64,000 bases of DNA from Bacteroidota bacterium. Its GTDB lineage: Bacteria; Bacteroidota; Bacteroidia; Flavobacteriales_D; Crocinitomicaceae. The position numbers and the translations under genes are program-made. Positions 3,254 to 52,900 of the stretch are shown piece after piece. The stretch is from the NCBI GenBank assembly GCA_030148165.1, contig JASBTZ010000003.1, forward strand, positions 1,054,001-1,118,000. The letters are read 5' to 3'. The notes under the pieces are model-generated. The model did no database searches. It had not been told where the DNA came from and saw nothing but the letters and a program-made list of their open reading frames with translations. The first letter of the stretch is position 1. Every line of letters starts with the position of its first letter.

Positions 3254-4564
3254 CTAGTATCTGTAATGTTCCGGCTTGTATGGTCCTTCAACCTTCACAC
3301 CGATATAATCAGCTTGTTCAGGACGAAGTTCTGTCAACTCAACACCAATCTTAGCCAGGTGAAGTGCAGCTACTTTCTCATCCAAATGCTTCGGAAGCAT
3401 ATATACTTTGTTTTCGTAACTACCTGAATTCGTCCAAAGCTCAATCTGAGCAAGTGTTTGGTTTGTGAATGAATTCGACATTACGAATGACGGGTGACCT
3501 GTTGCACAACCAAGGTTCACCAAACGTCCTTCTGCAAGAACGATAATGTCATTTCCATTAATCGTATACATATCAACCTGCGGCTTGATCTCAATTTTTG
3601 AAGATCCATAGTTGCTGTTCAACCATGCCATGTCAATCTCATTATCGAAGTGTCCAATGTTACAAACAATCGTCTTGTCTTTCATTGCTTCGAAATGTTT
3701 TCCCTGAACGATGTCTTTGTTTCCAGTCGTTGTTACTACGATATCCACGTTGTGTACAACTGACTCAAGCTTCTTCACTTCAAAACCGTCCATTGCTGCC
3801 TGTAATGCACAGATCGGATCGATCTCTGTTACGATAACCCTCGCTCCTGCTCCTCTCAATGAAGCGGCAGATCCCTTTCCTACATCACCGTATCCACAAA
3901 CAACAGCAACTTTTCCTGCCATCATGGTATCAGTAGCACGACGAATTGCATCTACTAACGATTCTTTACATCCGTACTTGTTATCGAATTTCGATTTAGT
4001 AACCGAATCGTTAACATTAATCGCTGGCATTACCAGTGTTCCATTCTTCATTCTTTCGTAAAGTCTGTGAACACCTGTCGTAGTCTCTTCAGAAAGACCC
4101 TTGATATCTTTTGTTAGCTCAGGGTATCGATCGAAAACCATATTCGTTAAGTCACCACCATCATCCAGGATCATGTTCAATGGTTGACCACCTTCAAATG
4201 CATGTAGCGTTTGTTCGATACACCAGTCAAATTCTTCTTCGTTCATCCCTTTCCACGCGAATACTGGAATACCTGCTGCTGCAATTGCTGCTGCTGCGTG
4301 ATCCTGCGTTGAGAAGATGTTACATGAAGACCAGGTAACATCCGCTCCCAATTCAACAAGTGTTTCAATAAGAACCGCGGTTTGGATTGTCATGTGCAGA
4401 CATCCGGCGATTCTCGCACCTGCCAATGGCTTTGATGCTCCGTATTCTTCACGTAAAGACATTAATCCCGGCATCTCTGCCTCTGCCAATCTGATCTCTT
4501 TTCGACCCCAATCAGCAAGACTGATGTCCTTTACTTTATAAGCTAATTTTTCTGTTGTACTCAT
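3254..4564 (-). CDS. ahcY: Adenosylhomocysteinase
   Basis: Hydrolyses S-adenosylhomocysteine to adenosine and homocysteine, clearing the product of SAM-dependent methylation. At 436 residues it has the family's usual length. Recognisable segments are [16 protein letters not shown] near residue 55, the substrate-site stretch [25 protein letters not shown], the NAD-binding glycine motif [12 protein letters not shown] and the C-terminal KPEHYRY. The gene is single, with a TAnnTTTG promoter box upstream and the shared terminator downstream. The 76-nt upstream gap to hemH is too short for a SAH or SAM riboswitch plus promoter, and I see none. Confidence 0.97.
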
Positions 4565-4599
4565 TATCTATTTTGTCTAATTATTAAATAATTGCACCG

Positions 4600-4607
4600 C
4601 AAAATTA
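4600..4607 (-). promoter_or_regulatory. Candidate -7 box of the ahcY promoter
   Basis: TAATTTTG on the minus strand fits the Bacteroidota TAnnTTTG -7 consensus and would give a leader of about 30 nt. No good TTTG -33 element is seen at the expected distance, only a T-rich run. Confidence 0.45.
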
Positions 4608-4640
4608 CGAAGTTACTTTGGGAATAAAAAAAGATGAGGA

Positions 4641-5666
4641 TTATAAATGATAATTGATCAAGTCTGTCAATCCATCGACAAAACGATCATGATCGTTTGA
4701 ACTGGGTACCAGCTGGATCTTTTCGCCACCATGCTCTTCGAATATTTCCTGGTACTCATCCCCTATTTCAATGATCGTTTCCAGGCAATCTGCGACAAAC
4801 GCAGGACTCAAAGCCAATATCTTCTTAGCACCTTTTTTCGCTTGCTCAATCACGACCTTATCAGAGAAGGGGGTTAACCATTTTTTATCAAGGCGTGACT
4901 GAAAACACACCGTATAGTCTTCCTCTTTCAGTCCAAGCTTTGAAGCAATCAATCTTGACGTGGCGTAGCATGTAGCTTTATAACAGAATTTATTGTGGTC
5001 ATTTACTTCGGTCTCGCAGGGTTGATCCGTACATAGATCTGAACCTTCATAAACCTTGTCCACATGTCGATCCGGTAAACCATGATAGGATATCATCACA
5101 TGATCATATTCCGACAGATTGAATTGTTTGGCTTGCTCTACGACCGAATCGATGTACCCTTCATTATCCCAAAATTGACCAACAATACTTACCTCCGGAA
5201 CTACCCACCATTTCCGAATGATCTTCATTGCCAGATCTGCCGCCGATCCTGATGTTGCGCTGGCATATTGCGGGAATAAGGGTAATACAATAATGTGATC
5301 GTAATTCTCCTTTCGCATTTGCTCCAGGACGTCATACATCGATGGATTCTGATAGCGCATAGCCACATGAATATCTACGTTCTTGTTTTCAAAACGAAGA
5401 CGCAGTTTAGCTGCGAGATTAGCCGTGTGGGTAATCAAAGGTGAAACTCCTCCTCCGTGCTCCCACAATTCTTTATAGACTTTAGCAGATTTAGGAGCTC
5501 TGAAAGGAACAATGATTCCGTTTACCAACAGCTTTCTTCCCAACCAGGGCAGATCAATCACACGTGGATCATTAAGGAATTCACTCAAATATCGCCTTAC
5601 ATCACTCACCTTAGGTGAATCAGGTGTTCCCAACTGGATCAATAATACTCCCGTCCGTTTCTGCAT
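4641..5666 (-). CDS. hemH: Ferrochelatase
   Basis: Inserts ferrous iron into protoporphyrin IX (or coproporphyrin III) in the last steps of heme synthesis. The 341-residue protein starts with the typical GVLLIQLGTPDSP and has the metal-site MISYHGLP (His195) and FVADCLETIIEI (Glu296). A cysteine-containing insert carries C212, C217, C228 and C233, with C254 after it. Cysteine inserts in this part occur in other ferrochelatases, and some members of the family bind a [2Fe-2S] cluster, but the spacing here does not prove one. It begins 1 nt after the stop of the binding-protein gene and so is last in an operon with that gene and the ABC exporter. Confidence 0.96.
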   Translation of the reverse strand: MQKRTGVLLIQLGTPDSPKVSDVRRYLSEFLNDPRVIDLPWLGRKLLVNGIIVPFRAPKSAKVYKELWEHGGGVSPLITHTANLAAKLRLRFENKNVDIHVAMRYQNPSMYDVLEQMRKENYDHIIVLPLFPQYASATSGSAADLAMKIIRKWWVVPEVSIVGQFWDNEGYIDSVVEQAKQFNLSEYDHVMISYHGLPDRHVDKVYEGSDLCTDQPCETEVNDHNKFCYKATCYATSRLIASKLGLKEEDYTVCFQSRLDKKWLTPFSDKVVIEQAKKGAKKILALSPAFVADCLETIIEIGDEYQEIFEEHGGEKIQLVPSSNDHDRFVDGLTDLINYHL

Positions 5667-5667
5667 T

Positions 5668-6522
5668 TTAAAACAATTTCGATCGCCAGTCTTTGGCTTC
5701 CTCTTCGGTTAACAAATCTAACATTAATAAATAAGAAACAGCTTTCTCAAAAGCAAGTGGATACTCTATGGCATTATAATTCCAGTCAGTCTCATTCAGC
5801 CACTTCGAAACCTGATCATGACGTAAATTATATCGCCAACTGATGATGTCAGCAGCGTTTTCATTTTCCTTCAACATCTTTGCTTTTTGCGCAACAATCT
5901 CGAAGAGCTGATTCAACTCGTCAGGATACTTCTCAAAAATCTCATTTCGAACAGCAATAGCAAAGCATGGCCACGGTGTAACTACCTCTCCTACATAACG
6001 ACACTTGTCTTGTTCTACATACGGATGCGTAGTGTATTTCTCCCAAAGGAATGCCTGTGCTTCATTGTTTTCCAGTGCCCAGAGTCCTCCGTAGACATCG
6101 CCAATCACATTAAATTTAAGTGATTTAGTATCCCAACCTTGTTGATCAGCCATCACGTATGCCATTAATTGTGATCCCGATCCAAATTTTGAAATCGCAA
6201 AGGTTTGATCTTTCAGGTCCTCCTCTCTTTGAATATCACTTTCTTGCGGAACGTGAATTCCCCAATGCAATGGTGTTGTAACGTATATACCTATGATTTT
6301 GGCGTCCAATCCTTGTAAGATTGCTTTTGTTATCCCTTCCGTGAGTAGTACAGCAATATCAATACTGCCACTTTCGAGTCCACGAATCATTTGACCCGTA
6401 CCTCCACCCATATCACTCCAGTGTAGCTGAATGCCCGAATCGCGAAAACGACCTTCTTCGATTGCCATTCTCCACGGTAAATTAAAATGCTCCGGAACAC
6501 CTCCGATCTTTAATCCAATCAT
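5668..6522 (-). CDS. Cytosolic SsuA/Ca3427-like substrate-binding-fold protein
   Basis: A 284-residue type 2 periplasmic-binding-protein fold of the SsuA/THI5/NMT1 superfamily. Seen: a ligand-site-like stretch GGGTGQMIRGLESGSIDIAV, then AISKFGSGSQLMAYVMADQ and NNEAQAFLWEKYTTHP. It has no signal peptide or lipobox. It starts directly with MIGLKIGGVPEHF, so it should stay in the cytosol, which is odd for an ABC binding protein. In this it resembles the Ca3427-type subfamily known from yeasts and bacteria, recalled from memory. It overlaps the exporter gene by 4 nt and abuts hemH, and no ABC importer is present. Its ligand is unknown. A small molecule linked to heme or cofactor metabolism is only a guess from context. 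Confidence 0.72.
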   Translation of the reverse strand: MIGLKIGGVPEHFNLPWRMAIEEGRFRDSGIQLHWSDMGGGTGQMIRGLESGSIDIAVLLTEGITKAILQGLDAKIIGIYVTTPLHWGIHVPQESDIQREEDLKDQTFAISKFGSGSQLMAYVMADQQGWDTKSLKFNVIGDVYGGLWALENNEAQAFLWEKYTTHPYVEQDKCRYVGEVVTPWPCFAIAVRNEIFEKYPDELNQLFEIVAQKAKMLKENENAADIISWRYNLRHDQVSKWLNETDWNYNAIEYPLAFEKAVSYLLMLDLLTEEEAKDWRSKLF

Positions 6523-41918: not shown

Positions 41919-42557
41919 ATGATTCTGAAGTGTCACATATGGCTCATCGTAATTTCATTCTGTTTGCTGGCTACACCGACAAATGCTCAGGATGACGACT
42001 ATATGTTTGCGCTGATTAACATGCGTGTGGAAGTAAAACAGCACAATTCGCAGGTAATCTGGAAGGTTCACAAAGAGCAACTGGGCCATGTTTATATCAT
42101 TGAAAAGTCGACAGACAAAGAAAACTGGGTAGAAAAAGCACGTGTACCATCCGTTGAACCGGATTCGATCATACTCGATTATAACCATGCCATCCCTGAT
42201 CGCGTTGAAGGTACGGTGGAGTACTATCGTTTAAAGAGGCTTAGTCCGGATGGTTACGAAGATATATTGAGAACATACAGCGTTTTTCACAAGGTGCTTT
42301 CGAATATGAAGATAACCTCTCCTCCGGGTCAAAGCAATAAGCTGGTTACAATTGAATATAAGGCCTTATTGGAAGTCCCTGTGAAGATCACAGTTGAAAC
42401 TATGGAGGGAGATGTAGTTTACGAATCCCGTGAAGAAACGGTAAACGGGGAAAACTGGCATACCATCAAATTGAAGAAGATCAAACCCGGAAGATATCTC
42501 GTGGTCATCAGAGATAATAACGAGAATAAGGTACAAAAGGCACTTCAGGTATATTAA
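41919..42557 (+). CDS. Secreted protein, T9SS-cargo-like, family unknown
   Basis: 212 residues from the ATG at 41919. Signal peptide (IWLIVISFCLLATPTNAQ), then two predicted beta domains. The first has HVYIIEKSTDKENW and VEYYRLKRLSPDGY, like the fibronectin-like module that precedes many T9SS sorting domains. The second ends GRYLVVIRDNNENKVQKALQVY, resembling a degenerate sorting domain. No catalytic motif. The longer reading to 41859 is unlikely. Confidence 0.75.
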   Translation: MILKCHIWLIVISFCLLATPTNAQDDDYMFALINMRVEVKQHNSQVIWKVHKEQLGHVYIIEKSTDKENWVEKARVPSVEPDSIILDYNHAIPDRVEGTVEYYRLKRLSPDGYEDILRTYSVFHKVLSNMKITSPPGQSNKLVTIEYKALLEVPVKITVETMEGDVVYESREETVNGENWHTIKLKKIKPGRYLVVIRDNNENKVQKALQVY

Positions 42558-42628
42558 TTACCTTTTATTTCTTGTATGAAGGTGCTTAATTAGCTAATTT
42601 TGATCGACTATTTGACTACTTAATTTAA

Positions 42629-43492
42629 ATGACGTACAAGCTAAACACGCTGGCCATTGCTATACTCGTCCTGTATTCAGGATGGAGTTACGGACAATCT
42701 TTTAACGAAGCAGAACTTGATCTTTTAGCCGGAAAGAAAGTGCGCCCAATAATAGTGGACGAATCCAAACAAGATTATTTCTATAAGAACTTCTATACCG
42801 ACTTTGACACGATCGAAAGAACGCTGAATAAAAAAGGAGATCAGATACATCCTTATCAAAATGGAACAGGATTTCTTGCGGTTTCAGCCTACAATGAACT
42901 GGTCGGTAGAGAGTTTACTGTTAACCACGTTTATCGGGCAAAAGCGAAAGGATCTTTCGACAAGAACAAATACTATGTTTTCGAGTTATATAATCCACTT
43001 CTGGGAACTTATTATTACGAGTATTCGACATCGACGAATTACCAAATGGAACTTGAGTTAGCCGATGAACTGGAATTTTCGTCGGAGCATTATTGCAAAA
43101 ACATTCGGGTGGAAAACAACTATGAAGACACGATCAAGTACTATTCTCCGGAAGTAAACAATCTCACACTCCTAAAGTTTGTTTCCAGTGAAGACACCAT
43201 GTATTACATGGTATTCCAGGACGAAATTGATGAACCCGAGGTAGAAGACACGAAATTAATTATGCTACTACAAAATGGAAAAGCATATGATTTTACCGAT
43301 GCCCGTTTGAGCGTTATTGACATTGGAGAAGGATATTACAGGTATAGTTTTTCTGTGGAACTGCCTCGCGAGGCACTTGTTAAATTCCGTACCGGAATGA
43401 TTAGCGATCTCGGATATTCAATCTATAGCACAAATTACAACACCAAACAGGGCCGTTTAATAAATGCCTACATAGATTGCCTGCTGAAATAA
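42629..43492 (+). CDS. Secreted protein of unknown function
   Basis: 287 residues with signal peptide (LAIAILVLYSGWSYGQ). The rest is mixed, with many aromatic and acidic residues (DFDTIERTLNKKGDQ, YNPLLGTYYYEYSTSTNY, VEDTKLIMLLQNGKAYDF). No transmembrane segment after the signal, no lipobox, no T9SS motif. Not recognised. Located between another exported protein and the convergent Lrp-type regulator, 6 nt from it. Confidence 0.75.
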   Translation: MTYKLNTLAIAILVLYSGWSYGQSFNEAELDLLAGKKVRPIIVDESKQDYFYKNFYTDFDTIERTLNKKGDQIHPYQNGTGFLAVSAYNELVGREFTVNHVYRAKAKGSFDKNKYYVFELYNPLLGTYYYEYSTSTNYQMELELADELEFSSEHYCKNIRVENNYEDTIKYYSPEVNNLTLLKFVSSEDTMYYMVFQDEIDEPEVEDTKLIMLLQNGKAYDFTDARLSVIDIGEGYYRYSFSVELPREALVKFRTGMISDLGYSIYSTNYNTKQGRLINAYIDCLLK

Positions 43493-43498
43493 GCCGTT

Positions 43499-43951
43499 TT
43501 AGAAGATTATCCTGGTGGTGTATTTAATCTCCTCAAGCACGATCTGACTATCGATGTCACTGATGTTGTGAATGGACGCGACCTCGTTCACAAGAAAATT
43601 CCTGTACTCATTGATGTTTGAAAATCGCACCTTAGCCAGGAAATCGAAACTACCGGAAGTATGATAGAACTCAACCACTGAATCCAGTGATTCCATCTGA
43701 GCCACAAATTCATCGCGTTTTTCCTTGTGATGATCTTTGATGGTCATATTCATGAATACAATGATATTTTTTCCGATTAGATCAGCATTTAATAAAGCCA
43801 CGTATTGCTTGATATAGCCTCCCTTTTCAAGTTTTTTGATACGTTCATAGATCGGCGTCGTTGTAAGAGCCAATTCCGAAGCCAGTTCTTTCGCTGTAGT
43901 CATCGAATTCTCCTGGAGAATTTCAAGGATTTTCTTATCGATTGCATCCAT
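43499..43951 (-). CDS. Lrp/AsnC family transcriptional regulator
   Basis: 150 residues. N-terminal winged helix-turn-helix (AKELASELALTTTPIYERIKKL) and C-terminal RAM ligand-binding domain (DSVVEFYHTSGSFDFLAKV). Binds amino acids or related metabolites and forms octamers. Divergent from the polyamine operon across a 103-bp AT-rich gap, so it is a candidate regulator of that arginine-using operon. A TACTTTTT box abuts its ATG. Confidence 0.92.
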   Translation of the reverse strand: MDAIDKKILEILQENSMTTAKELASELALTTTPIYERIKKLEKGGYIKQYVALLNADLIGKNIIVFMNMTIKDHHKEKRDEFVAQMESLDSVVEFYHTSGSFDFLAKVRFSNINEYRNFLVNEVASIHNISDIDSQIVLEEIKYTTRIIF

Positions 43952-44054
43952 AAAAAGTATTTTTTACTTTAATTAGTACTTTTTCCAACTAAATTTACCA
44001 AATTTTATTTAATAGACGGTTTTTTCGCTTTTTGTTTAAACATTTGTAGTGAAA

Positions 44055-44363
44055 ATGTCTATGACAATGAAAAGAGTAATTAAATCTTTTGAGAACTTTC
44101 ATGAAAGTTATCAGGAGGAAATTTACGAGCAATTCCTGAACGGAGAATTAGCACGTGCTACTTTTCCATATAAAGGCGAAATTGCCGATGGTGTATTGTT
44201 TCCGGACGAAGAAGACACAGTCTTTCTTATTCCCATTAGCTCAATTAAAGCATCCAAGTTAGCATCTGCTGAAGAAGATGACGATGACGACGAAAGAGGT
44301 GATGGTGATGACGAAGACTTCGACTCGGAAGAGTTATCGAATAATTTCGACGATGAAGAATAA
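44055..44363 (+). CDS. Acidic small protein leading the polyamine operon
   Basis: 102 residues from the ATG at 44055 (GTG at 44049 and ATG at 44067 are alternatives). A globular ~70-residue N-terminal part (RVIKSFENFHESYQEEIYEQ, ARATFPYKGEIADGVLF) is followed by a highly acidic tail rich in Asp/Glu. It overlaps the decarboxylase start by 11 nt, so translation is coupled. Family not known to me. I recall similar small acidic genes before this decarboxylase in Bacteroidota. A regulator or binding partner of the polyamine enzymes is possible; the acidic tail could bind polyamines, but that is speculation. Confidence 0.82.
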   Translation: MSMTMKRVIKSFENFHESYQEEIYEQFLNGELARATFPYKGEIADGVLFPDEEDTVFLIPISSIKASKLASAEEDDDDDERGDGDDEDFDSEELSNNFDDEE

Positions 44364-45747
44364 ATACATCGATCTGATCGAACAAACGTTCGATTTTCCA
44401 CAAGCGGAATTTAAGGTCAAGAAAGACACACTGTTCTTCAGGGATTTAGACCTGATGGAACTGGTTAATAAGTACGGTACGCCCTTGCGTTTCACGTATA
44501 TTCCGCAAATCGGTGAGCAGATTGAGACTTGTCGCTCCTGGTTTGATAGAGCAATGCAGAAAAGTAATTATCAAGGTAAGTACCACTACTGCTATTGTAC
44601 TAAGAGTTCTCACTTTCGATTTGTACTGGAAGAGTGCCTGGCACATGGTGTTAACATTGAAACCTCTTCGGCCTTCGATATTGACATTATTATGTCCCTT
44701 CACCGTCAAGGCAAAATTCCAACCGATCGTTTGATCATCTGCAACGGTTATAAGACTGATAACTACATCCTCAAGATCAAACAGCTGATAGATCTCGGAT
44801 TTCAAAATGTAATTCCTGTTATTGATAATTTTCATGAATTCGAATTACTGGATCAATTACTTGATGATCACATTGAGATTGGAATTCGAATTGCATCTGA
44901 AGAAGATCCGAAGTTCGAATTCTATACCTCCAGACTAGGTATTGGCTATAAAGACATTCTGCCATTTTATAAAAACAAAATCAAGGATAACCCTAAATTT
45001 TCGTTATCTCTACTCCATTTCTTCGTGAACACAGGAATTCGCGATAACGCTTACTATTGGAACGAACTACGGAAATTCCTAAACGTCTACCGCGAACTGA
45101 TCAAGGCAGGTAACCCGATCTACTACCTGGATATTGGAGGAGGCTTCCCGGTGAAAAATTCACTGGCATTTGATTTTGACTATGAATATATGATCGAAGA
45201 GATCATCAATCAGATTCAGTCGACTGCGGAAGAAGAAAATGCTTCTCATCCGGATATATTGACCGAGTTTGGTTCTTTTACTGTTTCCGAAGCAGGAGGG
45301 ATGATCTATACAGTGCTTGATCAGAAGAAACAGAATGATAGGGAACGGTGGAATATGATCAATGGATCTTTCATGACAACTCTGCCGGATACCTGGGCCA
45401 TCAATAAACGTTTCATCATGTTACCAGTCAACCGATGGGATGATAAATATGAGCGGGTATTTCTTGGAGGTTTGACCTGTGACAGTGACGATTATTATAA
45501 CTCCGAGCAACATATCAATGCGATTTATTTACCGGAGTTCAATGCAAACAAACCCCTTCATGTCGGGTTCTTCAACTGTGGGGCTTATCAGGAATCGATT
45601 TCAGGATACGGTGGTATCAAGCACTGCCTCATTCCTTCCCCCAAGCATGTACTGATCAACCAGGATGCTAATGGTGAATTGACTTATCAAGTATACCGCG
45701 AAGAGCAGAAAAGTGAGGACATGTTAAAATTATTAGGATACGAATGA
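44353..45747 (+). CDS. speA: Arginine decarboxylase, Bacteroidota short type
   Basis: 464 residues from the ATG at 44353. Fold-III PLP decarboxylase with a TIM barrel: PLP lysine K84 in HYCYCTKSSHF, the glycine-rich phosphate loop YLDIGGGFPV and the C-terminal domain FFNCGAYQESISGYGG. Converts arginine to agmatine. Shorter than the ~630-residue E. coli SpeA but of the length seen in this phylum. Context with agmatinase directly after (ATGA overlap) strongly supports arginine as substrate. The longer reading from 44278 lies inside the upstream gene. Confidence 0.9.
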   Translation: MKNKYIDLIEQTFDFPQAEFKVKKDTLFFRDLDLMELVNKYGTPLRFTYIPQIGEQIETCRSWFDRAMQKSNYQGKYHYCYCTKSSHFRFVLEECLAHGVNIETSSAFDIDIIMSLHRQGKIPTDRLIICNGYKTDNYILKIKQLIDLGFQNVIPVIDNFHEFELLDQLLDDHIEIGIRIASEEDPKFEFYTSRLGIGYKDILPFYKNKIKDNPKFSLSLLHFFVNTGIRDNAYYWNELRKFLNVYRELIKAGNPIYYLDIGGGFPVKNSLAFDFDYEYMIEEIINQIQSTAEEENASHPDILTEFGSFTVSEAGGMIYTVLDQKKQNDRERWNMINGSFMTTLPDTWAINKRFIMLPVNRWDDKYERVFLGGLTCDSDDYYNSEQHINAIYLPEFNANKPLHVGFFNCGAYQESISGYGGIKHCLIPSPKHVLINQDANGELTYQVYREEQKSEDMLKLLGYE

Positions 45748-46589
45748 GAACATTTGCAGGAATAGACGAAAAATATGCTCAGGAATCAAGTGCTGACGCA
45801 GTATTAATACCTGTACCATACGACGGTACCAGTACTTACGGGAAAGGGGCAGATAAAATGCCGGAAGCAATGTTCGACGCTGCTGAAAACATGGAGCTAT
45901 ACGACATTGAAACAGATTCTGAAGTCTATCGGGAAGGCATTTTTATTGCACCCGAAGTTTCGGAAGATAGTTCTCCGGAAGCTATGTGTGAAGCGGTACA
46001 AAACGAGGTCAATAAGTATCTGAATAAGGGTAAGTTTGTCACCGTAATCGGAGGAGAACACTCCGTTGCGATCGGATCTATCAAAGCTTTTAAGTCGAAG
46101 TACGACGATCTAAGTGTACTGCAATTGGATGCTCACTCTGACTTAAGACCTGAATACGAAGGATCCGCGTGTAATCATGCTTGTGCACTGCACTGGGCTT
46201 CAAAGAATACTAATCTGGTTCAGGTTGGAATACGAAGTATGGACAAGATTGAAAAACCATTTCTTAAAGAAGAGAACTTATTTACTTCCTACGCGATTCG
46301 TGAAAATGAATTCTGGCAGTCGGATGTTGTAAATTCACTCGGGAGAAATGTATATATCACCATCGATCTGGATGTATTCGATCCCTCTATTATGCCTTCT
46401 ACCGGAACACCTGAACCGGGAGGCCTTCTGTGGAACGAAACATTGGATCTGCTGAAAATGGTCTTCAAACAGAAGAATGTCGTTGGGTTTGACATGGTAG
46501 AGCTAGCGCCTATCGAAGGACTCCACGGTCCGGATTTTATGGCTGCGAAACTCTACTACAAACTGCTATCCTACAAATTCAACCTGTAA
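45744..46589 (+). CDS. speB: Agmatinase
   Basis: 281-residue ureohydrolase, dimanganese enzyme that cleaves agmatine to putrescine and urea. Metal-site motifs: TVIGGEHSVAIG, LQLDAHSDLRPEY and ITIDLDVFDPS. GTPEPGGLLWNETL near the C-terminus is family-typical. Shares an ATGA junction with the decarboxylase and a TAATG junction with the next gene. An arginase or other ureohydrolase is excluded mainly by context. Confidence 0.93.
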   Translation: MRTFAGIDEKYAQESSADAVLIPVPYDGTSTYGKGADKMPEAMFDAAENMELYDIETDSEVYREGIFIAPEVSEDSSPEAMCEAVQNEVNKYLNKGKFVTVIGGEHSVAIGSIKAFKSKYDDLSVLQLDAHSDLRPEYEGSACNHACALHWASKNTNLVQVGIRSMDKIEKPFLKEENLFTSYAIRENEFWQSDVVNSLGRNVYITIDLDVFDPSIMPSTGTPEPGGLLWNETLDLLKMVFKQKNVVGFDMVELAPIEGLHGPDFMAAKLYYKLLSYKFNL

Positions 46590-47344
46590 TGGAATTCCGA
46601 ATTCGTGCATATCATATTGGTAAGCGATTAGACCTTACACATGTTGACAGTCTGTTTTCATTGCGAGCAGCGAAATCAGACCCTACTTATCGCTTGATCG
46701 TACCAAATGAAAATACGTTCTATTACTTCAAGGATTTTGGGGCAGTTATTACCATCAACGCAACTCAGGTTGAACGTGACGAAGTACTGTCAAAACTAGG
46801 AGCTAATACAGATACATTTGAAGAATTCACATTACATGTGGACCCATCTGAATCACTCAGAGCCGACTTCAACACCATCTGGATTCCTGAATTAAACCTT
46901 GATCTGCTGCACATCATTTGTCTGAATATTGCTCAATCACTTGCGCTGGATCAATATCAAAAAGAGGTTGACATCCTGCTCGAGAAAACACGAGTGATCA
47001 CAACACAATTGGAAAAATTAGGTAAGATCAACAACTCGCAGCGAAAGTTAGCTCGATTCTCCGGTGAAATAATGAACCTCCGGAACAGGATGGCTGACAA
47101 CCTCTATATATTTGAAACGCCTCCGTTAGCCTGGAAAGATCTTCAGCTTAGTGAGATGGACGAAATATTAAACCTCGAGCTCGATTTCGGTAATCGTCAC
47201 CGTGCCATACAGCACAGTCTATTGGTAGTCAAGGATAACCACGAGTTCTTCAATAATCTATTACAACACAAACACAGTTCACTGTTGGAATGGATCATCA
47301 TAATCCTGATCCTATTCGAAGTGATTCACATTTTTATTAAATGA
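46589..47344 (+). CDS. RMD1/DUF155 family membrane protein
   Basis: 251 residues. The DUF155 core (TFYYFKDFGAVITINATQ, WIPELNLDLLHIICLNIAQS, then a long helical hairpin with ALDQYQKEVDILLEK and RNRMADNLYIFETPP) ends with one C-terminal transmembrane helix (WIIIILILFEVIHIFI). Relatives include yeast Rmd1/Rmd8 and mitochondrial RMND1; bacterial function is unknown. Its place between speB and the deoxyhypusine-synthase-like gene, with overlaps at both ends, ties it to polyamine metabolism in this genome. Confidence 0.88.
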   Translation: MEFRIRAYHIGKRLDLTHVDSLFSLRAAKSDPTYRLIVPNENTFYYFKDFGAVITINATQVERDEVLSKLGANTDTFEEFTLHVDPSESLRADFNTIWIPELNLDLLHIICLNIAQSLALDQYQKEVDILLEKTRVITTQLEKLGKINNSQRKLARFSGEIMNLRNRMADNLYIFETPPLAWKDLQLSEMDEILNLELDFGNRHRAIQHSLLVVKDNHEFFNNLLQHKHSSLLEWIIIILILFEVIHIFIK

Positions 47345-48309
47345 TTATGATACGCGAATTTATAGAACAGAACTACTTGCATTTTAATGCAGCATCATTG
47401 GTTGATGCAGCCAAAGGATATGAAACTCATATAAACAGTGGAAAGAAAATGTTGATCTCGCTGGCCGGTGCTATGAGTACGGCAGAGCTTGGTATCTCCT
47501 TGGCAGAAATGATTCGTCATGATAAGGTGCATATCATCTCTTGTACCGGTGCAAATCTGGAAGAAGACATCATGAATCTAGTGGCTCATAACAGTTATGA
47601 GCGAGTTCCTGAATACCGTGACCTAACACCACAACAAGAGTGGGCATTACTTGAAAGGGGATTGAATCGGGTTACGGACACCTGTATTCCCGAAGAAGAG
47701 GCCTTCAGAAGACTTCAACAGCACATTTTCGATATATGGAAAAAAGCAGAAGACGCGGGAAGACGAATGTTTCCGCATGAATTCATGTACGAAATGCTAT
47801 TATCCGGTGTGCTGGAACAATACTATGAGATCGACCCGAAGAATTCCTGGATGCTGGCTGCAGCGGAAAAGAACCTTCCCATTGTTGTGCCGGGCTGGGA
47901 AGATTCCACCATGGGTAACATTTTTGCATCTTACTGCCTGAAAGGTGAGTTGAATCCGCGTACGATGAAATCCGGAATCGAATATATGATGTGGTTGGCT
48001 GACTTTTACACGGATGAAGCAGGTGAAGATGGCATCGGATTCTTCCAGATTGGTGGTGGTATCGCAGGAGACTTCCCTATTTGTGTCGTTCCGATGTTGT
48101 ATCAGGATATGGAAAGAACAGACACACCTTTCTGGAGCTACTTCTGTCAGATTTCTGATTCAACTACAAGCTATGGGTCTTATTCCGGTGCTGTGCCAAA
48201 TGAAAAGATTACCTGGGGGAAACTTGATATCACGACCCCGAAATACATTATTGAATCAGACGCTACAATCGTTGCACCGTTGATCTTTCGATACATACTT
48301 GAAGGTTAA
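47341..48309 (+). CDS. Deoxyhypusine-synthase-family enzyme
   Basis: 322 residues, NAD-dependent. The catalytic lysine K294 is in NEKITWGKLD (compare WGK of eukaryotic DHS). NAD-site-like stretches are ISLAGAMSTAELGISLAE and PIVVPGWEDSTMGNIF. Bacteria lack eIF5A, so the product is probably not hypusine. Homospermidine from putrescine, the reaction of DHS-derived homospermidine synthases, fits the arginine-agmatine-putrescine genes upstream. Substrate is inferred from context. ATGA overlap with the RMD1 gene. Confidence 0.9.
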   Translation: MIMIREFIEQNYLHFNAASLVDAAKGYETHINSGKKMLISLAGAMSTAELGISLAEMIRHDKVHIISCTGANLEEDIMNLVAHNSYERVPEYRDLTPQQEWALLERGLNRVTDTCIPEEEAFRRLQQHIFDIWKKAEDAGRRMFPHEFMYEMLLSGVLEQYYEIDPKNSWMLAAAEKNLPIVVPGWEDSTMGNIFASYCLKGELNPRTMKSGIEYMMWLADFYTDEAGEDGIGFFQIGGGIAGDFPICVVPMLYQDMERTDTPFWSYFCQISDSTTSYGSYSGAVPNEKITWGKLDITTPKYIIESDATIVAPLIFRYILEG

Positions 48310-49632
48310 TTATTCTTTAGGAGTATCGTCAGTTTCATCTTCCTGAGGATCGGGAAGCTGTTCGGATTGCTCTTCGGATAAGGTATTTTCGTCAGTTGGC
48401 ATTTCCTCTTCTCTACCGAAGATTTTATTGAGACTTGCGATTGAGAAAGATCCTTTGTTGATCATGATCACAAGAATGGCACATAATACAATCGAAATTA
48501 GTACAACCGCATAGGCCAGATCCTGAATGACGTCGCCATTTTTAATCCCCATTTGAATAGGAATGGAGGCGAGAATGGCCGGCACGAGTCCCTTTGGTGA
48601 CATAATACCCATTATAGCAAGGTCCTTAACCGGCATTTTCTTCCGGACTAATACACGCACGGTAAATGGCCTTACAAATGCTATTGCCGCAACTATAAGT
48701 CCTCCTACGATGTAAAACATCGGACTTCCAAACTTGATGGTCACTCCAACATAGACGAAGAAATAGGTCTGAAGAATAAAGGCAATTTCTGAAAAGAAAT
48801 TGCGCTCCATGAGCTCCAGCCTTTGAGAAGGTAGTATAAATCGGATAGGTGTATAATTGATTATGTAAGCATTCCCCAACGTAATTCCGAACATGAGTGT
48901 AGCAATTCCACCATTCCAACCGATATAATCCGCTGAGCCGGCAACGATAAAAACTAATGCCAGATTCGTAAACATGTTGTTGGGTATTGCTCGCATCCAT
49001 CGTATAATGACAGACCACGCAATTCCCGCTCCGACACCTAACAAAGAGGCAAAGGCAAAGGACTTCCAAACGACATTTAAAATGCTCTTAATGCTAAATA
49101 CTCCCACTTCCATTGCAGATAACAATGCAAGGCCGATCACTAAACAGAAAACATCACTTAATGCCGATTCCAGTAAAAGGATTGTTGTTCCGTCCTTATT
49201 GATCTTAAGCTGATTGACAATTGGTATAACAACTGCCGAAGATGTTCCTCCGACGATCACACCGAAAAAAGTAGCACTCAACCAGCTATCCAGAGAAGTA
49301 AAGTAAAAGGCAAATACAGCGGCAATAGCGGAACTTAAAATGAAATTGGCCAGGGTTAACAAAAAGGCTGAACCTATGGTACTTCCTAATTCCCGAATAT
49401 TCAAATTAACACCACCCACAAAGAGTAAAATGATCAATGTAATGCTTGTGAATACAGGACCCACCTCTCCGAAATCTTCCGCAGACACGAATCCCATGAT
49501 CGGTCCAATTACAATTCCGATAACCAGCAGCCACAAGGCACTTGGAATCTTCGTGTATTTGAATAATCCATTGAGTAGATGGGCGAAAAATATCAGTCCG
49601 CCCAAAAAGACGATAATAATAGGAACTTTCAT
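48310..49632 (-). CDS. Cation:proton antiporter (CPA family)
   Basis: 440 residues, 12-13 membrane helices, then an acidic cytosolic tail (EEEMPTDENTLSEEQSEQ). Features of the NhaP/KefB-type fold: KIPSALWLLVIGIVIGP, GTSSAVVIPIVNQL and MGIMSPKGLVPAILASIP. Exchanges Na+ or K+ for H+; the ion is not determined. Convergent with the polyamine operon, stop codons abutting. Single gene. Confidence 0.9.
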   Translation of the reverse strand: MKVPIIIVFLGGLIFFAHLLNGLFKYTKIPSALWLLVIGIVIGPIMGFVSAEDFGEVGPVFTSITLIILLFVGGVNLNIRELGSTIGSAFLLTLANFILSSAIAAVFAFYFTSLDSWLSATFFGVIVGGTSSAVVIPIVNQLKINKDGTTILLLESALSDVFCLVIGLALLSAMEVGVFSIKSILNVVWKSFAFASLLGVGAGIAWSVIIRWMRAIPNNMFTNLALVFIVAGSADYIGWNGGIATLMFGITLGNAYIINYTPIRFILPSQRLELMERNFFSEIAFILQTYFFVYVGVTIKFGSPMFYIVGGLIVAAIAFVRPFTVRVLVRKKMPVKDLAIMGIMSPKGLVPAILASIPIQMGIKNGDVIQDLAYAVVLISIVLCAILVIMINKGSFSIASLNKIFGREEEMPTDENTLSEEQSEQLPDPQEDETDDTPKE

Positions 49633-49759
49633 TACACTAAATGTAATTAAAATTGAATTGGACTAAAGCCACATTTAGAATTTGTTTACAAACATTTTGG
49701 GTAGTCAAATAGACGTGTAAAGATTTGTCATTGCCCTTTCAATTCACTATCTTATTCAT

Positions 49760-49975
49760 ATGAAACGCTTACAGGAATTAACAAAAGAGATCATGGAGCT
49801 AACAACGCTCATTGAGGAGAAGTATCCGGAACTATACCAGCATCTCGATGAGAATCCGGTCACGCTCGGGCAAACAAATGACCCCGATCTTACCACGAAG
49901 AATTTCTCAGATTACCTGGAGAGTCTACGCACCTTATTGAAGCAATATATCGAATCCAACGAAATAAACGAATAG
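49760..49975 (+). CDS. Small conserved-looking helical protein
   Basis: 71 residues, predicted all-helical and acidic (RLQELTKEIMELTTLIEEKY, YLESLRTLLKQYIESNEI) with a loop between. No signal or membrane segment. Its stop abuts the convergent LamG/PNGase gene. Small proteins of this look are common in Bacteroidota; function unknown. Confidence 0.68.
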   Translation: MKRLQELTKEIMELTTLIEEKYPELYQHLDENPVTLGQTNDPDLTTKNFSDYLESLRTLLKQYIESNEINE

Positions 49976-52900
49976 CTATCTGGCAATAACAAATCGCTTC
50001 GAAATGATTCTGCCGTTTATATTAATCCGAACGGTATACAACCCTGATTTTAGCGAGGAAGTATTGAATGTCACTTCATCAGTAAGCGAACTCTCAGGCA
50101 ATTCACAGACCTCTCCGAATTCGTTGTAAACGGAAATAGTCGCTTTATCTATTCCTTCTCCTGCCAGATTTAATTGATCACGCGTCGGGTTAGGGTAAAG
50201 TTCTACTGACTCCGTTGCTTTAATGTCTTCGTAAGAAAGCGGGAAATCAACTGTGAAGTTATACACGATCGATTTTCCAAAATCTCCTTCAAAGGTTTTT
50301 ACAATAACCGGAACTCCGATCTCGCGAATGTACATCTGTCCTATTCCATCACTATTTGCCCAAAAATCAATTCCATCATCATCCGTATCATACACGTTTA
50401 ATTGATAACATCCCGGAGCTAACTGGAAGGTGTCACGATATAGCGTATTGTTCGCTAATCCGCCTTTCGAGAAGATGACATTACCCAGATCGTCTCTCAG
50501 ATCATAGCTTGTCTCAGCTCCCGCACTGTTGGTCTTCAGCTGGATGTAAAAGTAATTTGGAACCACATCCGGTATCTCAAAATTAGCCGAATGCTCATCA
50601 TTATATGCGTATTCGTCGCTTCCTCCATTCGGGTCTAATACGCGGGCATGGAATACATTTGGCCCTCCTGCTACTACTGTAGTCCAGAATGGTGCAGGTG
50701 TCGGTAACTCAACTTCTTCCTCTCCAAGAAAATCAAGCGATCCTGTCCAATTGAAGGTCTGTGAGTTGTTCTGATCATTGACCCAATACTCAATGGTAGC
50801 ACTTGTCAGCGTTGCACTTCCGGTATTCTGAATCACAACCTTCGGGTTGACACAAATCGCGTTCTCTCGCATGTACTCCACATAGTTGGAAGGATTTTTA
50901 ATTTCCTTAATCGTCGCATCCAGGGTGAAGTTCGGAGCATCATACGTCACTAACTGATGGTTGACAATATAGTTTGATGCACCGGATGCTGTTGTTACAC
51001 CGTAATCAAAGCTGTGCGTTTGTCCTGCGGTTACATACGGATTCAAATCCCATTCTTCCAAATCGGTTGGTCTACCAGGACACCACCCTGCACGATCGTA
51101 GATCCAAGTACCTCCCTGAGGAAAGATCGGATTCTCAGCACATTCTTTCCAAACCTGCCAGCTGAACTCATCAGCACCACCATCAATATCGACATAGTGC
51201 GTACGAGGAATAAATTCCCCTTCCTGTCCATGACCAGTTATCATCGAGCGAATCTTAAAGGCATCGCCCATAGGATTTAGCGTTATATCCCTTGGTGCAA
51301 AGTAAGTATCAGCCATGATCGCCTGATATCCTATTTTGTTGTTTCTCCAGATCTGTTGAATATCCATTACATCACGAGGAGGTGTTCCAACAATGAACAG
51401 GAATTTGATGTCGTAATCTTCATTCCATTGACCTCCACGCTCCATGGTAAAGCGCATGTCTCCTTTAAATACCGGAGCGAAATCGGTCAGGTCAAATTCC
51501 CATGTTTTACCGTTTGGACCAAGATTTAAGTAAAGACCATAAGGTGTTACGAAAGAAGTTACCTCAAATTTCATTGGCCATCTGCGATAGTAGTTCATAT
51601 CAGAGATAATGATTGAACCTGTGGACGTAACCGGAATAGTGCCAACTAAGTTTCCAAACTCATCATAGATGTTTTGATCAACCGCTTCCCAGTAATAATT
51701 AGTACTAACGAGGTTAACATCATCGTCATAAACTGTTCCTGGATTCGGAATGATCGTGTACTCTTCTACCGTATTCGGAACATTAACTAATGAATCCAAC
51801 ACCGTTACCACCGTAATCGTTGTATCGTAATTTCCTTCGAAAAGCGTAATGCTTGGACGTTCTGTAGCCACCTCAAAGAAACGGGAAAGATCTTTACCTC
51901 TCGTGTATTTCCAAATATACTGGCTGCTCGTTGTACCCGATGCTGAAGCCGGTGAATCATCCAGTACAGTCGTCATTCCGTAATCATCCAGCTTGTAGTA
52001 TGCAACCAAATTTCCCCAATTGGGATGTGTGTTATCCAAAGAGATATTCATCCAGTTGGCAATCTCGGTTGGTTGTAGCTCCACATTCCAAACAGTAACC
52101 TCATCGATCAAGCCTTTATAGTTGTTGTTATAGTTCAGGTCCTTTCCAACGATCATCTGTGCAAATTCGATCGGATTCGTTTTTCCTGTACCACTGTGCC
52201 AAAGGACTCCATCCAAATAGATGTTCATGATCCCTGTTGCAGCATTCTTTGTAAAGGTCCAGTGACGCCACTGACCTTCGAATTCATTTACTGCGGCTGC
52301 TTTATTAATTCGATCAAAACCACTTCCTAGGTCACCACAATCAAAATAAACAGATCCATTGCCCCAAGGTAAGTGCGAGCTGATGTCACGACCTCCATCG
52401 GCACCCTGACCATACATGATTGTTGTATTTACCGGTAGCGTATTTGCGTCTCCAAATGCCCAGAATGAAACAGACACTTCATTCTGTGTCGTTGACATTC
52501 CCGCTGTTGGAAATTCAATGTGACCGTTTTCTGCAACGTTTGTATGAATACCATTAGCTGCGTACATTCCCATTCCAGGAGCGGATGAAGTTCCTTCGAG
52601 ATTGATAGTTGTTGTCGGAGTTGAATTGGTAAATGAAAGCTCTATGATTACATCTGATATACCATCCCAAACAAAAGGCGTATAGAATTGGATTCTGTTT
52701 TGTCCGGCGGAGAAAGTGTAATTGTCACTGAATACTTCTGTAAATCCTGTTAGATCCGGATTGGTATTATCCAAGGAAGCACCCATTACCTGCTTCATTT
52801 TAACACGCATAAAGTTTAGGCTTCCTCCACCAATCGCATTCACAAGAAAGCCATCAATGTCACCTGCTGTAATTCCCGAACCTATGAGTTCTGCAGCGGT

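Follow-up and report, generated by a model that had tools for sequence, protein, structure and literature searches.

The closest described enzyme to the one that closes the pathway treated here is SpeY, which passages of PMC9992855 describe as a homologue of deoxyhypusine synthase (DHS) that works as a homospermidine synthase. Part of PMC8570120 gives homospermidine as the principal polyamine in two Flavobacterium species, and a statement in PMC3072086 says this of all Flavobacteriaceae. The other described family of concern is DUF155; PMC7564844 depicts its human member RMND1 as having DUF155, coiled-coil and transmembrane (TM) parts, and a section of that paper also states that RMND1 variants cause disease. 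Both families meet in a stretch of 64,000 nucleotides from a Bacteroidota bacterium of the Flavobacteriales group, family Crocinitomicaceae (contig JASBTZ010000003.1, positions 1,054,001 to 1,118,000), called the window below, in a row of five genes for a small acidic protein, a SpeA-type arginine decarboxylase (ADC), the agmatinase SpeB, a membrane protein of the RMD1/DUF155 family and a DHS-like enzyme, with a gene for an Lrp/AsnC-family regulator divergent from them (Table 1). The core of ADC, agmatinase and SpeY/DHS-like synthase is an already known pathway. We read the locus as a homospermidine operon, probably controlled by Lrp, that also encodes an acidic protein responding to polycations and a membrane protein with an effect on their balance, and we give this reading about an even chance of being right.

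The ADC matches PF02784 and falls slightly below the cut-off of PF00278 in Pfam, and the speA models of NCBIfam match it, all below cut-off; judged by its sequence it is a short variant of the SpeA type. Three solved structures match it at E 1e-10, all of them arginine decarboxylases, the nearest being the biosynthetic enzymes of E. coli and Vibrio, and the alignment of the best match consists of two stretches and runs through the CDSD motif. SpeB scores 227.3 bits with the agmatinase equivalog TIGR01230 (cut-off 174.3) and matches PF00491, and its nearest solved structure is the agmatine ureohydrolase 3pzl. The DHS-like protein is the sole PF01916 match in the window genome (136.5 bits, cut-off 27), with a WGK motif at residue 292 that aligns with the WGK of DHS structures, and it lies below the cut-off of every listed NCBIfam equivalog for DHS or homospermidine synthase. 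Deoxyhypusine synthase proper was rejected, as TIGR00321 gives 91.5 bits where 304.25 are required and the other listed DHS models are also below cut-off. Thus all core enzyme families of the route from arginine over agmatine and putrescine to a homospermidine-type product, as set out in the original prediction, are matched: the ADC would decarboxylate arginine to agmatine, SpeB would cut agmatine to putrescine, and the DHS-like enzyme of the SpeY type would build homospermidine from putrescine, so that the organism probably makes a homospermidine-type polyamine by these three enzymes. The pathway is patchy within the family of the window (f1), where 15 of 80 genomes carry a DHS-family gene; the ADC stands beside the DHS-like gene in all 15 and SpeB in 14, the exception being G362.

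All five open reading frames (ORFs) lie on the plus strand with successive overlaps of 11, 4, 1 and 4 nt, as had been predicted. The 11 nt are shared by the acidic ORF, taken as 44055–44363, and the ADC gene; ADC and SpeB overlap by 4 nt, SpeB and RMD1 by 1 nt, as TAATG, and RMD1 and the DHS-like gene by 4 nt, the last only if the DHS-like gene starts at 47341, since comparison with relatives leaves 47341 or 47347. By the same kind of comparison the ADC start (MKNKYIDLI...) is firm. Many homologues of the acidic protein begin at or near M-K-R-V-I, and the ATG at 44067, giving 98 residues, is therefore a likelier start than 44055. A second species of the genus repeats the 11-nt overlap (G431, L105; acidic ORF 3695–3964, ADC homology from 3954), and the order ADC-SpeB-RMD1-DHS is found again in other genomes. 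Chance or a local oddity as origin of the row is ruled out by its recurrence in other genera and families, and the overlaps suggest that the row is translationally coupled.

The RMD1 protein scores 84.5 bits with PF02582 (cut-off 27) and is the sole match to this family in the window genome. PF02582 is uncommon, being found in 14 of 247 genomes of the phylum sample, 21 of 299 of the order sample (20 over cut-off) and 9 of 149 of the class sample (8 over cut-off). In the order sample RMD1 is linked to pathway genes in 11 of the 20 genomes over cut-off (G000, which is the window genome, G397, G480, G277, G344, G413, G307, G385, G268, G286 and G269), the short contig of G385 showing RMD1-DHS only. 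A scan of named genomes used an alignment of operon-type RMD1, and the best 80 of 403 confirmed relatives were retained, a set that favours operon-type sequences; 38 of these loci hold pathway genes within about 8 kb and 42 do not. The linked genes are mostly co-directional and often a few nt apart. RMD1 stands behind SpeB in 25 of the 38 linked loci, and in 23 of these directly before the DHS-like gene, the exceptions being L129, with three intervening genes, and L145, in which DHS was not found; Tenacibaculum contributes 11 of the 25, and the rest come from Crocinitomix, a Polaribacter metagenome-assembled genome (MAG), Saprospiraceae and further MAGs. The other 13 have RMD1 downstream of the DHS-like gene and come from Algibacter, Lacinutrix, Olleya, Aquimarina, Psychroserpens, Mangrovimonas, Bizionia, Flavobacterium and others. 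Within the family of the window six of the 15 operons contain RMD1 (G000, G397, G277, G344, G413 and G557).

A tree of 96 RMD1 proteins was made by a quick method with support from the Shimodaira–Hasegawa-like approximate likelihood ratio test (SH-aLRT) only; RMD1 of L014, L089, L093 and L098 gave no whole ORF and was left out. The behind-SpeB group (29 rows) requires 3 changes on this tree against 25.0 in shuffles, and for the downstream group (13 rows) the corresponding figures are 2 and 12.4, contrasts that near-copies inflate. The two placements fall on different branches of the tree, and the link between RMD1 and the pathway has therefore probably arisen twice. In approximately unbiased (AU) tests, all linked RMD1 together with four neighbours as one clade was weakly rejected (p 0.043), this group having been picked after the tree was seen, and the behind-SpeB rows (n=29) constrained to one clade gave p 0.116. 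The RMD1 frames of L089 (G269) and L093 (G293) have in-frame stops, and these genes seem broken or mis-assembled. Three MAG contigs labelled Saccharospirillaceae, Beijerinckiaceae and Thermoanaerobaculia (L142, L152 and L196) carry RMD1 of the Bacteroidota type, L142 with the complete ADC-SpeB-RMD1-DHS row, and are probably mis-binned.

The acidic protein of the window has no match in Pfam, NCBIfam, PHROGs or PADLOC, and none of the homologues tried is over cut-off in Pfam or NCBIfam. Common to the homologues are a domain of some 65 residues and a tail rich in D/E, with a median of 48% D/E from residue 65 onward, and the net charge of the window protein is -24. An AlphaFold 2 (AF2) model shows a b-a-b-b-b-a domain with pLDDT 75, and a search with this model against the Protein Data Bank (PDB) found nothing below E 1e-3; the list was topped by chains of bacterial STING and of the glyoxalase fold at TM 0.2–0.3, which were not used. 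In the best-80 set the acidic gene is found in 33 of the 38 pathway-linked loci and in none of the 42 unlinked ones, a count made with a model that includes many of the counted sequences; a first model, built from the window and five other sequences, among which were rows from the contigs L125 and L144, recovered the same 33 loci. In twenty of the 33 loci no more than 30 nt separate the acidic gene from RMD1 or a core gene. The acidic gene precedes the ADC in a few species and follows the DHS-like gene in most linked loci: 28 of the 33 are downstream of the DHS-like gene on the same strand and three upstream of the ADC at 454 to 3925 nt, while in L123 it is far upstream on the opposite strand and in L145 it comes after RMD1. 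Operons of G431, G524, G021 and G029 have the acidic gene without RMD1, and among other operons lacking RMD1 no acidic gene was found within the stretches seen of G425, G359, G395, G415, G332, G427 and G362. The class sample of 149 genomes has the acidic gene in 24, both genes in 19 and a DHS-family gene in 108, a few of the latter belonging to a different, high-scoring type. In 11 of the 19 the acidic gene is at most 3.1 kb from DHS, the match ends being at most 65 nt apart in 10 of them, and these 11 cases span five families (f1, f2, f6, f62 and f83).

The divergent regulator matches both the helix-turn-helix (PF13412/PF13404) and the AsnC ligand domain (PF01037). Its divergent position, proposed earlier as a possible control of the set, recurs in six further genomes of the family (G425, G359, G395, G415, G332 and G431), and in G344, G413 and G557 the Lrp gene is convergent, behind the operon. 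The intergenic region of the window and these six relatives aligns with a mean column identity of 68%, part of which is explained by kinship, five of the six relatives being from one genus. It contains a conserved block near a promoter-like stretch of the TTTG type, with AAAGTA/TACTTT inverted repeats, all read by eye, and this conserved region (43952–44054) may have a regulatory function. Lrp probably controls the operon from there. An Rfam search of 42000–50000 gave no RNA element above gathering scores, a scan for σ70 promoters gave 14 matches against a mean of 13.9 in shuffles, and a terminator scan 3 against 3.7. Behind the operon, the Na+/H+-exchanger-type gene stops directly against its last stop codon (48309/48310) without a spacer.

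Table 1. Features of the polyamine locus, in positions of the window
Feature	Position	Strand	Basis or remark
Lrp/AsnC-family regulator	43499–43951	-	PF01037, PF13412, PF13404; divergent from operon
Lrp-operon intergenic region	43952–44054	.	Alignment with six relatives
Small acidic protein, about 98 aa	44067–44363	+	Start at 44055 in the original prediction gives 102 aa
SpeA-type arginine decarboxylase (ADC), short, 464 aa	44353–45747	+	PF02784
Agmatinase SpeB, 281 aa	45744–46589	+	TIGR01230, PF00491
RMD1/DUF155 membrane protein, 251 aa	46589–47344	+	PF02582
Predicted RMD1 C-terminal hydrophobic helix with Glu234 and Glu244	47288–47338	+	Alignment column counts
DHS-like putative homospermidine synthase (SpeY type), 322 aa	47341–48309	+	PF01916; WGK lysine motif at 292
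Na+/H+-exchanger-type gene	48310–49632	-	Head-on behind operon

Several counts weigh against the preferred reading. In the phylum sample, with flanks of 1.5 kb, RMD1 is linked in just two of the 14 genomes, the window genome and G109, and in the class sample in one of the eight genomes over cut-off, the window's own, the other seven having RMD1 and DHS on separate contigs of draft assemblies. In G109 the genes ADC-SpeB-RMD1 reach the contig end (C49, L098) with no DHS behind them as far as visible; its DHS is on another contig (C42, L119), behind a gene for a MutL-like protein of 624 aa, named by eye. RMD1 was not found in nine of the 15 operons of the window's family, and with the low linkage in the wide samples this means that the pathway goes without RMD1 and RMD1 without the pathway. 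The prominence of Tenacibaculum among the behind-SpeB loci also leaves fewer independent cases. The acidic gene was found in seven of the 15 family operons, within the stretches seen (G000, G277, G344, G413, G557, G431 and G524). Only 19 of the 108 class-sample genomes with DHS have an acidic homologue, which is near DHS in 11 and on another contig in eight, and five genomes have the acidic gene without DHS. The window genome itself has a second copy of the acidic family (G000:C18:108046-108318; L121, L245). The Lrp gene is present in two of the 38 linked loci. Other genes recur in these 38 as well, namely VOC in 16, the short protein family 'sec108' in 17 and a GNAT-CN hydrolase in five, and recurrence alone therefore does not tell the job of a gene. 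Finally, neither sequence nor fold searches gave a solved structure that assigns a function to the acidic protein or RMD1.

As to the conserved five-gene order that had been expected, a fixed operon is ruled out, since neither RMD1 nor the acidic gene is always present or always in the same position. What holds of the expected linkage to speA/speB elsewhere is, for RMD1, the order sample and the best loci, and it does not extend to the phylum and class samples; for the acidic gene it holds in the linked loci and fails in most DHS-bearing genomes of the class sample. The neighbourhood is flexible, with an association that is real in near relatives, and in wide samples the helpers are usually absent or elsewhere.

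Some neighbours were seen in passing. The second acidic copy of the window genome adjoins a gene read by eye as sucD (succinyl-CoA ligase alpha) and is remote from polyamine genes, and in other genomes the acidic gene away from DHS is beside a GNAT-CN hydrolase gene (G644 and G613; L232 and L237) or CorA (G597). This fusion of GNAT and carbon-nitrogen hydrolase (PF00583 and PF00795 in L193) recurs at the operon, between SpeB and the DHS-like gene in L112 (about 4153–5682) and L114, and after the DHS-like gene in L175 (5567–7102) and L193 (6409–7941). A NUDIX gene is found in three of the 38 linked loci. Genes for channels of the CorA and MscS types are repeated neighbours of the homospermidine operon (L127, L128, L134, L125 and L122); CorA genes are in 10 of the 38 linked loci, eight of the 10 being from Tenacibaculum, and in none of the 42 unlinked ones, and in the class sample six of 111 genomes with CorA, from three genera and two families, have it at most 3.5 kb from DHS.

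The AF2 model of RMD1 (pLDDT 92.5, pTM 0.84) has an a/b domain followed by long helices, the last of about 50 residues (200–250) with a hydrophobic end that is present in the sequence as well as in the model and is predicted to insert into the membrane. Glu234 and Glu244 in this end are identical in all 76 sequences of alignment A4, which consists of the window and 75 of the 80 loci (omitting L151, L163, L172, L173 and L178); the smaller alignment A3 consists of the window and 29 loci. Foldseek places CtMrs2 and human MRS2 on top for the whole model (E 1.6e-3 and 1.8e-3, prob 0.94 and 0.92, TM about 0.3); for the N-terminal domain, chains of TATA-binding protein follow closely (prob up to 1.00). 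By VIA-align, RMD1 matches CorA, ZntB and Mrs2 chains at Z 7.8 to 10.9, and several of the alignments with CorA/Mrs2 chains (Z 8.3 to 9.5) cover residues 1–251, the coverage on these chains ending at what is presumably their TM1; the same list has designed coiled coils at Z 10.8 and 10.9, a note of the tool itself warns that unrelated helical models can score as high as Z 13, and TATA-binding protein chains match the N-terminal domain taken alone at Z 7.0 to 7.7. The likeness of the predicted fold to the CorA/Mrs2 channels is only weak and lies within the noise of helical models. Membership in CorA was ruled out, as RMD1 lacks the GMN motif and a second TM, ending in one hydrophobic helix, and PF01544 is not listed in its Pfam search at E up to 1; a profile comparison with CorA (hhalign) gave a probability of 0.2%. 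Sequence matches of RMD1 to the PDB have unrelated names (best E 0.07 for the single sequence, 0.7 for the profile) and were taken as chance.

Their recurrence in the row suggests that the acidic protein and RMD1 help to manage the charged polyamines. Both genes would be optional but selected, with the handling of the charge of the polycation as their shared task, while the Lrp/AsnC protein would regulate the operon through the shared intergenic region. The acidic protein would most likely be a cytosolic, polycation-responsive partner, whose D/E-rich tail may bind homospermidine or basic surfaces and whose small domain may signal to, or restrain, the biosynthetic enzymes, antizyme-like in effect and not in ancestry. 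RMD1 would most likely form an oligomer anchored in the membrane, its N-terminal domain facing the cytoplasm, and would at the membrane affect polycation and divalent-cation balance. A rather unlikely alternative is that both genes serve stress or cation handling in general, are carried along with a well-expressed operon and have no direct contact with polyamine metabolism; both do occur away from the pathway, with varying neighbours, and the acidic gene is missing from most class-sample genomes that carry DHS, but the sharp division of the acidic gene between linked and unlinked loci, the two RMD1 placements on separate branches and the mostly co-directional, closely spaced genes argue for a closer tie.

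RMD1 could instead serve as an anchor or scaffold, keeping the polyamine enzymes together at the membrane as a metabolon, as the original prediction had proposed. Its hydrophobic C-terminal helix, its long helices and its place directly between SpeB and SpeY in the 23 loci would suit such a role, which we nevertheless consider unlikely, since a second subfamily follows SpeY, mostly behind further genes, in 13 of the 38 loci, and both the 42 loci without pathway neighbours and the nine family operons without RMD1 speak against it. Distinctly unlikely is a one-TM oligomer of CorA/Mrs2 shape, whose TM glutamates would line a path for polyamine or Mg2+ as an export valve or leak. The leading Foldseek matches, the full-length VIA-align coverage, the invariant glutamates and the CorA genes near the locus favour it, but coiled coils and TATA-binding protein chains reach similar scores, and the CorA profile, GMN motif, second TM and PF01544 all fail; the fold likeness, glutamates and CorA neighbours are leads, not proof. 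The product might also be another one, such as spermidine or a guanidino compound made from agmatine, with the helpers acting on that, and the NCBIfam matches of the DHS-like enzyme do include 1,9-bis(guanidino)-5-aza-nonane synthase, all matches being below cut-off. We hold this to be quite improbable: agmatinase adjoins the DHS-like gene in all but one of the family operons, which points to putrescine as the substrate, and the measured Flavobacterium species contain homospermidine in the part of PMC8570120 cited above.

A wider form of the preferred reading, a homospermidine operon with two charge-handling helpers, would make DUF155/RMD1 proteins from bacteria to human RMND1 CorA/Mrs2-shaped oligomers that move or sense polycations, and the acidic protein a dedicated homospermidine-binding regulator; both would have been recruited to homospermidine operons, RMD1 twice independently, so as to keep polyamine in balance with Mg2+ and K+. 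Such a reading is a long shot, but if true it would be the first biochemical clue to a conserved and disease-linked family. Among the open-access papers listed by keyword, subscription journals being outside this scope, no listing names a biochemical activity for DUF155, nothing on point joins DUF155 with polyamine, and the papers on RMND1 with CorA are unrelated ones; none was found on RMND1 with 240 kDa, on RMND1 with Rmd1 and structure, or joining homospermidine synthase, Flavobacterium and arginine decarboxylase. The matching passages of PMC2754498 concern other DUF numbers, not DUF155. A repeated link to one small-molecule pathway in culturable bacteria makes the function of DUF155 experimentally approachable, the acidic protein represents an unnamed family with an equally testable genomic place, and the association of the helpers with the pathway is wider than visible from the window alone.

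Compared with the ADC-agmatinase-SpeY pathway, the locus has the same three enzyme families in the same order, with one PF01916 gene in the genome; it differs in that its row also includes RMD1 and the acidic protein, and its product is a predicted one. Ornithine decarboxylase antizyme is a small protein in polyamine control, and the acidic protein shares with it the idea only, that of a small protein tied to such control, as an analogy. With CorA, Mrs2 and ZntB the RMD1 protein has in common the order of parts, in which an a/b domain is followed by long helices and by a helix that reaches the membrane end, but it has one TM, no GMN and no sequence relation that was found. A mitochondrial DUF155 protein is tied to translation, and RMD1 has a relative in human mitochondria, RMND1. 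Like RMND1, Sif2-Sif3 and Mrx10, it is a member of DUF155 well over the PF02582 cut-off, but unlike them it is bacterial and stands inside a polyamine operon.

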